Shown: piece after piece, positions 3,036-47,789 of the stretch
Layout: the number at the start of each line of letters is the position of its first letter
Numbering within the stretch: position 1 is the first letter of the stretch
Assembly (NCBI GenBank): GCA_963575645.1
Contig: OY754470.1
Coordinates: forward strand, 4,286,501 to 4,350,500
DNA length: 64,000 nt
Direction of reading: 5' to 3'
Source of the DNA: Xanthostigma xanthostigma
Lineage: Eukaryota > Arthropoda > Insecta > Raphidioptera > Raphidiidae
Notes under the pieces: generated by a model
Seen by the model: only the letters and a program-made list of their open reading frames with translations
Told to the model about the DNA's origin: nothing
The model's database searches: none
Position numbers and translations under genes: made by a program

Positions 3036-3480
3036 ATAAAATATAGTTTAAAAAAAACTAAAAAACACGCTTTATATCGGACTAAAAAGTAAAAAATAAT
3101 TGTTTTAAAATAAGCTTAAAAAGCGTTGGGCGCTCGATGTACGAAAATGTGGAACAAAGCGCCCCACGCTTTTTAAGCTTATTTTAAAACAATTATTTTT
3201 TACTTTTTAGTCCGATATAAAGCGTGTTTTTTAGTTTTTTTTAAACTATATTTTATTTTTCACTTTTTAGTTTGAGGATCTATAAAAGAATTTATTAATC
3301 CTGGGGGTCCTAATAAGGATAATGGGAAACTGTTATCAAATTATTGCATTGTCATCGGTCCTTGATACGTATGCAAAGTTTCAAATTAATCAGACTTCGG
3401 GAAATTGGCGAAAATTATGCTCAAAGATTCCGTTACGGACATACATATTTACAACCCAAACTAATATAAAGCGTATAAAA
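3036..3480 (+). mobile_element. Hairpin element copy 1
   Basis: Two arms of about 97 bp form a near-perfect palindrome (about 3038-3134 and 3158-3254) around a loop of about 23 nt starting CGATGTACG. A single-copy tail follows, running to the 'ctaatataaagcgt' end near 3480. One arm pair is mismatched here: the left arm reads gcgTtgggcgct while the right arm implies gcgTggggcgct. No coding capacity. Copies 2 and 3 are at 13807-14243 and 35327-35963. Confidence 0.9.
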
Positions 3481-3585
3481 ATAGATTTTGTTTAATTAAA
3501 ACAATAATTATTATTTCTTTTCAAATATCAAACTTCCGCGATGGCATATGTCTATCTTTTAAGGATGATTTACTATACACATTTT

Positions 3586-13505: not shown

Positions 13506-13806
13506 TAATATATAATGTTAGAGATTGAAGATTATTATTTAAATTTCAGAAAGAAATTTTGAACACTTCTGATATGAAAATAGTTTCCCAAGAGAAAAGT
13601 AGATAATGAAAGCTTTCTGTATGCTGATGCATATTTCGTATTCACCTAACGTCACGGAAGCTTTGGCATTAAGTTCGACAAAAATGATGAAATTTTTCTA
13701 AATTGCCAGATTGAATGTATCTCTATTCACTTTAAAAATACCGTTTTGATTAGGCAATGCTCTCATTTTCTTTATTTACCTTTGAATTAAGTAATTTAAC
13801 GAATAA

Positions 13807-14243
13807 AAAATATAGTTTAAAAAAAACTAAAAAACACGCTTTATATCGGACTAAAAAGTAAAAAATAATTGTTTTAAAATAAGCTTAAAAAGCGTGGGGC
13901 GCTCGATGTACGAAAATGTGGAACAAAGCGCCCCACGCTTTTTAAGCTTATTTTAAAACAATTATTTTTTACTTTTTAGTCCGATATAAAGCGTGTTTTT
14001 TAGTTTTTTTTAAACTATATTTTATTTTTCACTTTTTAGTTTGAGGATCTATAAAAGAATTTATTAATCCTGGGAGTCCTAATAAGGATAATGGGAAACT
14101 GTTATCAAATTATTGCATTGTCATCGGTCCTTGATACGTATGCAAAGTTTCAAATTAATCAGACTTCGGGAAATTGGTGAAAATTATGCTCAAAGATTCC
14201 GTTACATACTTACAACCCAAACTAATATAAAGCGTTTAAAAAT
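13807..14243 (+). mobile_element. Hairpin element copy 2
   Basis: Arms 13807-13903 and 13927-14023 are perfectly complementary over 97 bp, with a 23-nt loop (13904-13926). The tail runs to about 14243. Nearly identical to copy 1, differing at only a few bases, so both spread recently or are homogenised. Confidence 0.92.
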
Positions 14244-29204: not shown

Positions 29205-29724
29205 TACAGGGCTTGTCCCACGACATTACTGCCATAGCCTGCGACTGTGTTGCTGGGATGATTTCAAGTCAAAAATGTCTAATGAACATATACCCGGAAC
29301 GCTATCCTAACTGAGCTAGAAGCATTTGAAATTTTAAATAAGTAAGCCCACTAATGCGGGTATTAGGTTCGGCTGTTGGTTTTGTTATTATTAAAAAGAC
29401 CAGATGGCTGTGAATCACCATTAGTATTTATTCGTACTGATCCTGAGACTCTTCGCAGAGCTACCACTTCAATTCTAAGAAGAGCTAGACTGTATTCAGG
29501 GACTGGGTGGACATTTTAAAGAACTAATTCAATAAAGCGATTTCTTTTTAAATGGTTTTTAAATTAGTATAGGGAATTCCTACAACTACTTATCTAAAAT
29601 TTCAAATGCTTCTAGCTCAGTTAGGACAGCGTTCCGGGTATATGTTCATTAGACATTTTTGACTTGAAATCACCCCAGCAACACAGTCCCAGGCTATGGC
29701 AGTCATGTCGTGGGACACCCTGCA
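29205..29724. mobile_element. Long-TIR DNA element
   Basis: Arms of about 135 bp (29205-29340 and 29590-29724) are inverted copies with scattered differences. Outer ends are TACAGGGCTTGTCCCAC and, inverted, TGCAGGGTGTCCCAC; TA flanks both sides (29203-29204, 29725-29726). The TA target and CAGGG ends would fit a Tc1/mariner-type element. The ~250-bp centre has no transposase frame. Confidence 0.7.
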
Positions 29725-34375: not shown

Positions 34376-35326
34376 TGCTCTGTGTTTATATTTGAACTGT
34401 CACTGCGCGCGCACCAGATCTATCCACAAAGCAAGCTTGAAAAGAAGTATCGTGTGAAGCGAGCACATAAAAGCAAGTAAGAAAAGTAGCGCTAGAAAAC
34501 TAGTAGTCAGATCTAGTGGCAAATCCAGCCTCGTGTGCAGCGGCTTTGTGAAGCACCACATTCGTTTCTCCGACGTCCTGCGTTTGTCTGTGGGAGCTAA
34601 AAAATCGCTTTTATGCGTTTAGTCACTGAAACTTTATTAAAAGGATAAATCAAAACATTACATTATTTACAATATGCTTCATATTTTTCTTGTACAATAT
34701 TCTTTTGTAATAGATAAATATAAAGTTGCATGATAGAATTATTTAACAGTTCAAAATCTACATGAATCACATATTTTAGACTGACTGGTTTCAATTGGTG
34801 TACCGGGGTTTTGTTATTTACACATTATTTATCAACTGCAAGCAAATCGCAGATGGCCTTGGTCTTTGCTTTTTTATTTGTGGAAGGAGGATACTGATGC
34901 ACATATTACCACATTCTTTCTGTTTACGGTGAAATATCTGACAATTTCTTGGGTAGAATTTCTCTAGACAACGCTCTTTACCTGTTAGATACAATTACAC
35001 ATTTCAACTTACCTGTTGTTTACTTAACTTAGGCTTAACCCGATTTATTCTGTCATTATAATAATTTGCTGGATATTTTTTCGATAATATTATATTGTAA
35101 TATAATACACACCAGACTTTTGAGTTGCTAATTGCTCTTTAAAATTTTACCCACGATGTCAGGGTTTAAACAAATAAATCTTTTTCTAAAGAAAAATAAA
35201 CCATATTACTTACTTAGTACTTTTTACAAATTTAATTTTTAAGCACTCAGAAGTTAGAACGAAAATTTGGAAGTTTTGTGAGTACCTGCCTACTAAGTAG
35301 AATTCAAGTTAGAATATTTTATATAA
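34376..35326. other. Gene-free DNA
   Basis: GC-richer until about 34600 (possibly more Penelope debris), then AT-rich with nothing recognised. Confidence 0.5.
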
Positions 35327-35963
35327 AAAATATAGTTTAAAAAAAACTAAAAAACACGCTTTATATCGAACTAAAAAGTAAAAAATAATTGTTTTAAAAT
35401 AAGCTTAAAAAGCGTTGGGCGCTCGATGTACGAAAATGTGGAACAAAGCGCCCAACGCTTTTTAAGCTTATTTTAAAACAATTATTTTTTACTTTTTAGT
35501 TCGATATAAAGCGTGTTTTTTAGTTTTTTTTAAACTATATTTTATTTTTCACTTTTTAGTTTGAGGATCTATAAAAGAATTTATTAATCCTGGGGGTCCT
35601 AATAAGGATAATGGGAAACTGTTATCAAATTATTGCATTGTCATCGGTCCTTGATACGTATGCAAAGTTTCAAATTAATCAGACTTCGGGAAATTGGTGA
35701 AAATAAAGCGTTTACTACAGAGGATCTATAAAAGAATTTATTAATCCTGGGGGTCCTAATAAGGATAATGGGAAACTGTTATCAAATTATTGCATTGTCA
35801 TCGGTCCTTGATACGTATGCAAAGTTTCAAATTAATCAGACTTCGGGAAATTGGTGAAAATTATGCTCAAAGATTCCGTTACATGCATACATACATACAT
35901 AATACATACATACATACATACATAGTTAGTTACAACCCAAACTAATATAAAGCGTTTAAAAAT
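35327..35963 (+). mobile_element. Hairpin element copy 3, with duplicated tail
   Basis: Arms 35327-35423 and 35447-35543 are perfectly complementary even though the copy carries two changes relative to copy 2; both changes are matched on the opposite arm. The tail is present twice (the 'gaggatctataaaag' block starts near 35563 and again near 35722), joined at a short 'aaataaagcgttta' junction. The distal tail holds a CATA microsatellite (35884-35927) where copies 1 and 2 have only one or two units. Confidence 0.92.
35884..35927. repeat. (CATA)n microsatellite inside hairpin element copy 3
   Basis: About ten CATA units with one interruption. Confidence 0.95.
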
Positions 35964-36815
35964 CAACTGTTTCGACATAAAGCAGAGCTGGCAATTTTCA
36001 ATTTTAATAATATTCAATACGATTTTGTGTTAAACAAACATCACAAGAAAGTCTATACATTCTTACAGAAAATGCCACTGCTGATAAAGAATTATTGCTG
36101 TTTTAAATATTATATCATTTCAGTAAACAAATATTTTGTTACAGCTATATCTTTAATAATTTATTTAAAAGCAAATATAATATTGTTAGAAATTAGTAAT
36201 TCTCAGTGCTTCTCCTCAAAATTTAACAATGCAATATTATGTACTGCTGCAGATAAATATAATTAATTATGAGGAATTTTGTAAACATAATAATTAATGT
36301 ATTTTTCTATTTGAAAGGTACTGACTAGACTTTGTTTGACAACTTGAATTTGTGTACTGGGATCACTTTTCAACCAATAAAATTTTTTTGATAAATGTCT
36401 TGAAATTGACCACATTGTTCTGGTAGAAAATTGATACTTATTGAAAAAAAGAAAAATTATCAAATTGTTTTTTCGGCACATCTTGAAAATGACATATAAA
36501 AGTCGAAATATTAACAATAAAACAGTCCAAATCTATCGAAATTATTTTTTTAATCAGTATTGACTCAAAGACCAACGTAGAGCTGCGGGAACGTTGCGGT
36601 AGTCTGATTTTTTAGGGTCTTATTGACTACTAAATAAAAAATTAAGCTGGCACTTTATGCTCCATTTCTGATATTTCCAATGTACTTTCAGCGCTAAAAG
36701 TATATCTGGTACGGTCAATGTAACATATCTACTTTCAGTAGTCATAACAGAAATAGGGCAATGGGTCTACTAACAAAATATAAAACTGCAAAAGATAACA
36801 ACATAAGTAATTTGA

Positions 36816-36919
36816 CAATAAATAAAATTATCGACCAATTTTTCAGACAAATATATTGACAAAAAATATTGTTTGTTAATATATTTGTCCGAAAAATTGG
36901 TCGATAATTTTATTTATTG
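36816..36919. repeat. Foldback repeat, ~47-bp arms
   Basis: 'aataaataaaattatcgacc' through 'caaatatatt' is followed by its inverted copy with two mismatches and a loop of about 8 nt. Confidence 0.9.
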
Positions 36920-37944
36920 AAGAATTCTACTCAGACGTTAATCAAAGATTTGAATAAGTAATGTGAAGTGTGTAAATCATTTTTAATTGGTTTTGCTTTA
37001 AGTAATTTTATAAGAATTTAAACATCTATGAGCGATATAAAATAAAATCACCACGACCTTATAGATAAGAACGCGTCTTCCTCAAACTGAATCATATTGA
37101 CAAAAGATTGTCAATAATCAAAATGTAAAATGGCAATATACATAAATGATAATATATGTAGAATAATAATAAATAAGGCATAATGCACGTGTACATATAT
37201 TTGACTTGATTATGAATAATTCATCATCATTATTGCAATAGGTGTGGACAAACTGTTATGTTGGGTTTCTTCTTTCAATGATAGTGTGCCTGCTGTTAAA
37301 ATACATCTAGCATTGAAATTGACGGTTATACTTTCGATGGTTATTCAGTGGTTATTTATCGAAAACCATAACTATCCATTTATATTATCAAATAATCTCT
37401 TCACGTGATTTCCATCCCTCTTCGAGGCTAATAGAGGTGAAGGAATTGAGTAGTAAAAAAGTAACCAAAAGTTACAAAACACCAAAACACAGAAGATAAT
37501 TAAAAAAAGCTTTGATCGTATTGTAAGCACTTGAAAAAGTTCTTACTACAAATAAATAAAAAGCCCTTGACAACTTGTCAAAAATGCACTTTTAATAAAA
37601 AAAAAAAACAAAAACAAAAAAAGCCCTTGAATTATAAACAATTCGTGATAAACTGTTTTCTCAAGATGTAATTCATCCATTAATATTTTCAGAATTTTTT
37701 TTTTTTAAAGGTATATCCAATTGTATTTATCCAGTTTTCAGAATTAATGACATTCAATTTTCATGCGTATAGCTAAGAAAAAGTAATTTTGATAATATTA
37801 CATAAGACAGACAGAGAGACATAATAATGCTACAATATGATGGTGCTACCGTGGTTAGCGAAACGTGTATCGAGAAAAAAGTGTTTTGTTGTTTTGTGTT
37901 TATCGACTATATAATAGTTTGTGTAATTAAGTCTTTGATTTATG

Positions 37945-47201: not shown

Positions 47202-47789
47202 ATAGCCAGAGTGCCCGTCGGCAAAAATTTTATTGATACATACTCTCCCCAAACTTTGTATATGGATTCATTAGGCCTAGTCTGACACCTATTTCCTCTA
47301 TGACTTTTCTTGATTTTGGGGCGTTTTCCCTCTAAACTTTCCGAAAGATGTTGTTTTGACAACATGTAAAAATTTATAGATACTGTTTGTTTTTTTAATT
47401 GGATAGCTTAAAAACTTCAACCAAAACGCTAAAATAATGTTCTCTGACAAATAATGTATGAGCTATTTAAAATGTCTGACACTTCGAATATGTCGACCAT
47501 ATTCGAGGTGTCAGACATTTTAAATAGTTCGTGTTATTTGTCAGAGAACATTATTATTTTTAGCGTTTTAGTTGAAGCTTTTAAGTTATCCAATTAAAAA
47601 AACAAACAGTATCTATAAATTTTTACATGTCGTCAAAACGACATCTTTCGGAAAGTTTAGAGGGAAAACGCCCCAAAATCAAGAAAAGTCATAGAGGAAA
47701 TAGGTGTCAGACTAGGCCTAATTAAGCCATATACAAAGTTTGGGGAGAGTATGTATCAATAAATTTTTTGCTGACGGGCACTCTGGCTA
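47202..47789. repeat. ~590-bp near-perfect palindrome
   Basis: The two halves are inverted copies that meet at GTCGAC (47492-47497) with essentially no spacer. Outer ends are tagccagag/ctctggcta. A few substitutions and small indels distinguish the arms. Each arm contains the same possible small frame (right arm MSSKRHLSESLEGKRPKIKK, ending about 47722), which I cannot assign to a family. Confidence 0.9.

Follow-up and report, generated by a model that had tools for sequence, protein, structure and literature searches.

Hairpin elements in the genome of Xanthostigma xanthostigma carry matching changes on their two arms, and the hairpin is found in either orientation against the rest of the element. 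Both features are probably the result of DNA-level copying from arm to arm within the 3' palindrome of what looks like a non-autonomous Helentron (HINE), by template switching or by conversion in a folded heteroduplex. A preliminary description of three copies had reported the matched changes and had offered gene conversion between the arms, template switching or selection for the folded form as explanations; the two orientations of the hairpin are new relative to it. Its interpretation is upheld as far as homogenisation of the arms is concerned. It does not hold for copy 1 as a rare intermediate, and the alleles of copy 3 are largely inherited.

The hairpin element and its carrier

The window, which is the whole stretch of DNA analysed (64,000 nucleotides), belongs to an assembly of 623 Mb in 28 contigs; this assembly is the genome that was searched. 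There are three copies of the hairpin element in the window (Table 1). Their arms are 97-102 nt long and 98-100% complementary, and they enclose a loop of 23 nt. The arms of copy 3 (35327-35423 and 35447-35543) are 100% complementary over 97 nt. Folded as single-stranded DNA, copy 3 forms one stem with an energy of -107.3 kcal/mol; the mean of shuffled sequences is -24.4 (z -23).

Table 1. Features of the three hairpin elements in the window; states are given as left arm/right arm
Feature	Position	Strand	Details
Copy 1 hairpin	3036..3256	+	arms 3036-3134 / 3158-3256; 99 nt, 99% complementary; 23-nt loop
Copy 1 states			position 45, G/G; position 92, T/G
Copy 1 tail	3257..3481	+	remainder of element; final letters ...AATATAAAGCGTATAAAAA
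Copy 2 hairpin	13805..14025	+	G/G at positions 45 and 92
Copy 2 arms	13802-13903 / 13927-14028		102 nt, 98% complementary
Copy 2 tail	14026..14242	+
Copy 3 hairpin, whole	35325-35545
Copy 3 left arm	35327..35423	+	97 nt; bears 35369 A and 35416 T
Copy 3 left arm, outer part			putative 3' HINE end, by inspection: stem TAGTTT/AAACTA and subterminal inverted repeat ACGCTTTATAT
Copy 3 loop	35424..35446	+	CGATGTACGAAAATGTGGAACAA; 23 nt; reversed relative to the tail in many other copies
Copy 3 right arm	35447..35543	+	bears the matched 35454 A and 35501 T
Copy 3 tail	35544..35962	+	core internally duplicated; repeat starts 35563 and 35720
Copy 3 tail, ATAC-type microsatellite	~35886-35921
Copy 3 tail, putative 5' subterminal inverted repeat	35945-35955		ATATAAAGCGT

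The loop occurs 5165 times genome-wide when up to three mismatches are allowed (2579 and 2586 times on the two strands), and the reversed loop, used as a control pattern, has no match genome-wide. An exact 27-base loop pattern has no match in viral contigs. The study is based on a single genome assembly, and the sampled copies have the exact loop and lie in the window or in part of contig C1: the sample comprises the first 100 exact-loop places on C1 (0.14-15.9 Mb) and the three window copies, and since one sampled locus has two loops the total is 104 copies. A further 17 loci (L002-L008 and L109-L118) were picked for their likeness to copy 3; they are outside the counts unless stated. The sample includes a short-arm family, the copies of which are mostly young, and a long-arm family in which each arm is longer by about 38 nt; the palindrome arms of this older family are about 135 nt long.

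The carrier of the hairpin looks like a HINE with an unusually long 3' palindrome. Read in reverse orientation, the element starts with TTTAAACGCTTTATATTAG and ends with ATATAAAGCGTGTTTTTTAGTTTTTTTTAAACTATATTTT; between them is an ATAC/TATG-type microsatellite whose length varies. By inspection, it has a perfect 11-bp pair of subterminal inverted repeats, ACGCTTTATAT at the free end of the hairpin and ATATAAAGCGT at the tail end; the published length in HINEs is about 12-15 bp, so the pair is one base short. A short stem, TAGTTT/AAACTA, is likewise seen by inspection in the outer arm. The ATAC-type array lies near the tail end in many copies with a type A tail, the type found in the window, and is very short in copies 1 and 2. 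For the nine filled sites shown, comparison with paralogous empty sites places the insertion in an A-tract, which is a T-tract on the other strand; the 18 alignments were picked from a longer list, and extra A's at the ends could hide a short target duplication. No open frame of at least 110 aa is present over the three window copies. The Helitron-like Rep domain PF14214 has 89 matches in the genome, 42 of them in open frames of at least 1500 aa, and none in 14 control genomes. HINE/DINE-1 elements as described in PMC4067079 are alike in their layout of subterminal inverted repeats and a short 3' stem, in the microsatellite, in apparent insertion into T-rich tracts (A-rich on the strand read), in the lack of a frame of at least 110 aa (seen here in the window copies) and in their high copy number. 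However, the 3' palindrome described there is 5-10 bp long, whereas here it is a hairpin of at least 97 bp which occurs in both orientations. The unusual feature is that the entire 3' end is present twice, inverted.

Several composite structures are found. The tail of copy 3 is duplicated internally at 35563-35860, and nested or tandem tails are seen in several other copies. In L121 and L022, two hairpins are nested or fused arm to arm with their loops opposite; these may be template-switch chimeras. At C1:41319-41338 kb (G000), two pairs of hairpins separated by about 18 kb are in mirror order, which suggests an inverted segmental duplication; all four hairpins are among the left-tail matches described below.

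Changes on the two arms

Copy 3 differs from copy 2 by matched changes at two stem positions. At position 45, copy 3 has 35369 A with 35501 T where copy 2 has G with C; at position 92, it has 35416 T with 35454 A, and copy 2 again has G with C. Copy 1 differs from copy 2 only at position 92 of the left arm (3127 T facing 3165 C), apart from the outermost base 2. Both the matched changes and the one-sided change had been recognised in the preliminary description, although the latter had been placed at about 3126 and 3167, off by one and two bases.

Position 45 was counted over the whole genome with exact flanks and short-arm spacing. There are 1190 G/G places (each counted on both strands), 876 in which neither arm has G (these may take in mismatches between A, C and T) and 8 mixed ones, out of 2074. 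Independent arms would give about 1013 mixed places. Mutation after insertion would give about five, from the one-copy rate of 19 changes over the two arms of 55 copies at 98 columns per arm. The mixed state has therefore left essentially no descendants at position 45. Together with the 5165 loop matches against none for the reversed control, this count means that the pattern in the three window copies is not due to chance. The matched alleles at this position are G, A and C. All four bases occur at position 45 though the tails vary little; in each listing T is on one arm only.

Position 92 behaves differently. Exact 57-mers were counted genome-wide for three states: T/G is present 1452 times, T/T 325 times and G/T five times. 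Copy 1 is therefore one member of a large subfamily in which the mismatch is stable, and not the rare intermediate that it had appeared to be, although T/G may be an ancestral step from G/G to T/T. Since amplification brought T/G to 1452 copies, correction is not obligatory, nor is it fast. The five G/T copies (L119-L123) were considered as reciprocal intermediates and rejected; by inspection they look like single changes in older hairpins, some of them truncated or nested. The T/T state is found on the 45/67 backgrounds GG/GG, AA/TT, GG/TT, AA/GG and CC/GG (the last from the set chosen for likeness to copy 3), and T/G on GG/GG, CC/GG and AA/TT. The presence of T/T on five backgrounds, and of T/G on three of these, thus points to repeated conversion or recombination. 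The alleles of copy 3 at positions 45 and 92 are common to many other copies; its matched pair is real, but in the window it consists mainly of inherited subfamily alleles.

Matched and unmatched substitutions were counted in 55 of 56 copies of the short family and 35 of 42 copies of the long family, with a class cut-off slightly unlike the split by the 38-nt stretch. Substitutions shared between copies are matched in 47 cases and unmatched in 47 in the short family, where T/G at position 92 accounts for 38 of the unmatched cases; in the long family 25 are matched and 105 unmatched. Among those confined to one copy, the short family has 0 matched and 19 unmatched; the long family has 5 matched, 66 unmatched and a further 2 in which each arm changed in a different way. 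The preliminary description had looked to a large excess of matched over unmatched changes as the mark of homogenisation. In plain numbers the reverse is found: unmatched changes prevail by 237 to 77 overall and by 85 to 5 among one-copy changes in both families. An excess of matched changes does appear against permuted arms, mainly in the shared changes: the totals are 47 against a mean of 14.7 (maximum 26) in the short family and 30 against a mean of 9.9 (maximum 18) in the long family, where the 5 one-copy matched changes compare with about 0.2 expected. It should be noted that the permutation preserves allele frequencies and not ancestry, so that a shared matched change counts one event many times; the whole-genome counts therefore weigh more.

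Deletions are matched as well. Single-A deletions are present on both arms at positions 15 and 56 (two copies each) and 63 (one copy); the deletion at position 15 is also found once unmatched, and within A-runs such deletions could arise twice by slippage. In L084, 8 nt are deleted on both arms. The stretch of about 38 nt that distinguishes the long family is on both arms in 43 copies, on neither in 56 and on a single arm in 5, i.e. it is on both or neither in 99 of 104. One of these five, L009, is a hybrid of long and short; the other four are truncated, nested or internally deleted.

One insertion has a matched double change of its own. L046 carries three matched and four unmatched changes, and a 24-mer which includes two neighbouring matched changes has exactly two matches in the genome, its own two arms; as a single locus and a single exact 24-mer were tested, relatives with an extra change inside the 24-mer would escape notice. 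Arm-to-arm copying therefore also belongs to the history of this single insertion, at or after its arrival.

Orientation of the loop against the tail

The rest of the element, the tail, is of two types, A and B. A tail is found within 400 nt in 99 of the 104 copies, always on one side of the hairpin only; none is found within that distance in the other five. Relative to the loop, the tail is on the left in 65 of these 99 copies and on the right in 34. Exact motifs for tail A give 1038 left and 609 right genome-wide.

Opposite orientations also occur with the same tail. L041 and L056 have at least 770 nt of tail in common with at most one mismatch, and L028 and L051 have 532 nt in common. Aligned by the loop, the two 217-nt hairpins of each pair are identical, yet they lie opposite relative to the tail; the flanks at the free end differ, so the members of each pair are separate insertions. 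Pairs with at least 400 nt of common tail are opposite in 9 of 37 cases; the nine derive from three tails (L041 with L056 and L091, L018 with six others, and L028 with L051). With at least 150 nt in common, 264 of 536 pairs are opposite, and an identical 175-nt tail shared by 24 copies is on the left in 13 and on the right in 11. Groups with exactly the same full tail are mostly of a single orientation. Inversion of the loop is recurrent and recent but does not take place in every cycle; a flip at every cycle was rejected on account of the exact-tail groups. Tail trees require 5 orientation changes for tail A, against 5.7 in shuffles, and 11 for tail B, against 13.3 (42 or 53 of 500 shuffles are as low, depending on the label); few forks are supported, and the trees weigh little except in showing that sets of identical tails are mixed.

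L018 has a tail near-identical to those of L053 and L103 and a different hairpin; exchange of hairpins between copies could mimic some events. The B tail (L036, L061, L085) has what we take to be a resemblance to a reversed tRNA-like sequence. A tRNA gene in this tail was considered and rejected, as ARAGORN found none in five of five loci.

Probable arm-to-arm copying and its alternatives

In the probable course of events, the 3' end of a HINE would have become a palindrome with arms of 97-102 nt (about 135 nt in the older family) around the 23-nt loop. During copying of this palindrome the nascent strand would at times jump to the opposite arm; alternatively, one arm may be converted from the other within a folded or cruciform heteroduplex. 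A single switch would overwrite an arm from its partner, so that a one-sided mutation becomes matched. The loop would be reversed relative to the tail by a crossover, or by a switch to the other arm followed by a return. If the product lay in a copy that later transposed, it would give rise to matched subfamily alleles such as those of the window; otherwise it would stay private. Template switching thus explains the matched substitutions, the matched deletions and the flips together. Gene conversion with or without crossover would leave the same marks; we infer template switching in preference to crossover or mismatch repair, and the stage of the event likewise.

Template switching between the arms of inverted repeats has been described as giving arm homogenisation together with spacer inversion (PMC8604942), and a role in keeping hairpins paired has been proposed for it (PMC8794818). 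Both marks are found here: homogenisation in the position 45 counts, the matched excess and L046, and inversion in the left and right tail counts and the opposite pairs. The likeness extends to matched changes without a wobble step. Whereas those studies deal with short inverted repeats in yeast genes and RNA genes (PMC8604942, PMC8794818), the case described here is a single long palindrome carried by thousands of transposon copies dispersed over the genome. The human Y palindrome P6 is also comparable, as conversion keeps its arms similar and inversions are rare; however, it is described as one large palindrome on one chromosome (PMC3723533), not as arms of about 97 bp in thousands of dispersed copies. 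Among the open-licence literature matches listed, there is no report of a transposon hairpin with homogenised arms or an inverted loop.

Plain subfamily descent, in which each matched allele came about once in a founder (by chance or at formation of the hairpin) and was then inherited, accords with the many copies that have the alleles of copy 3 and with single-copy changes that are mostly unmatched. We consider it unlikely. The founders would still require double changes: position 45 alone has matched G, A and C, and matched changes are found at positions 67 and 64 and elsewhere. Descent is also at odds with the recurrence of T/T on several backgrounds, with a double change that is private to one insertion (L046) and with opposite-orientation pairs that are otherwise identical.

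A second alternative is hairpin replication coupled to transposition. A single-stranded intermediate that ends in the hairpin would prime synthesis of its own second strand from it and be resolved by a nick, so that the hairpin flips and mismatches meet repair. Adeno-associated virus (AAV) has terminal hairpins which exist in flip and flop forms and undergo self-primed replication (PMC1131931). The location of the hairpin at one end of the element, the coexistence of both orientations (1038:609, and also with near-identical tails) and the Helitron-like Rep frames in the genome all agree with such a cycle. This alternative is doubtful in our view, and it is similarly doubtful that the element is a Helentron-derived transposon with an acquired parvovirus-like terminal hairpin, with matched changes and loop inversion as by-products of transposition. 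In parvovirus hairpin transfer, flip and flop are about equal in each replicating lineage. No such equality is found here: orientation is mostly constant in the exact-tail groups, and the 9 of 37 opposite pairs at a common tail of at least 400 nt are not 1:1. T/G at position 92 also went uncorrected through many transpositions. Stable orientation in close groups and the long-lived T/G therefore argue against an obligatory parvovirus-like cycle. The likeness to AAV (PMC1131931) lies in a terminal hairpin with two orientations; in contrast to it, neither an autonomous replicon nor a terminal resolution site is evident here, the hairpin is at a single end, and orientation is not at equilibrium within the subfamilies.

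Selection for folded RNA or DNA would produce matched changes by independent compensating mutations, if well-paired copies transposed better or gave rise to siRNA. In 52 of 122 copies (one copy counted twice and 17 others chosen for likeness to copy 3), the local alignment of the arms is free of gaps and contains no more than one mismatch, and stem loops in HINEs have been suggested to be necessary for transposition (PMC4067079). However, the mismatched T/G (1452) exceeds the paired T/T (325), and in 40 of 42 one-sided cells at positions 64, 72 and 92 the two bases do not form a G-T wobble on the strand that was read. Single compensations do not predict the matched deletions or a stretch of about 38 nt on both arms, nor does folding predict opposite loop orientations. 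The deletions and flips thus favour DNA copying over selection on folded RNA, which we regard as quite improbable; the loop inversion that bears on this had been missed when selection was first proposed. An assembly artefact, i.e. palindromes collapsed or inverted by the assembler, is very improbable even though palindromes are difficult to sequence, as a unit of some 220 nt is small beside a long read, the main contigs reach lengths of tens of Mb, strand counts are balanced with reversed-pattern controls at 0, and unmatched changes persist.

Arm-to-arm copying at palindromes is of wider relevance. As a rule, template switching at such sites is deduced from single events that are scattered, whereas this one genome contains about 5,000 dispersed copies of the same long hairpin. 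The markers at stem positions 45, 67 and 92 and the directional loop allow conversion, correction and inversion to be counted, dated and compared across insertions, and the hairpin family can be considered a natural archive of the copying of DNA at hairpins. A repeat family can thus show covariation without selection on RNA structure, a point of caution when structured RNAs are sought by comparative methods.

The window contains other repeats with inverted arms. A further foldback element at 47203-47789 has 232-nt arms (96% complementary, 123 nt apart), and an inverted repeat at 29214-29717 has 131-nt arms (96% complementary, 242 nt apart). At 36809-36926 there is a palindrome without a spacer, with 59-nt arms that are 90% complementary; by eye, a sequence like it adjoins broken hairpins in L063 and L122.
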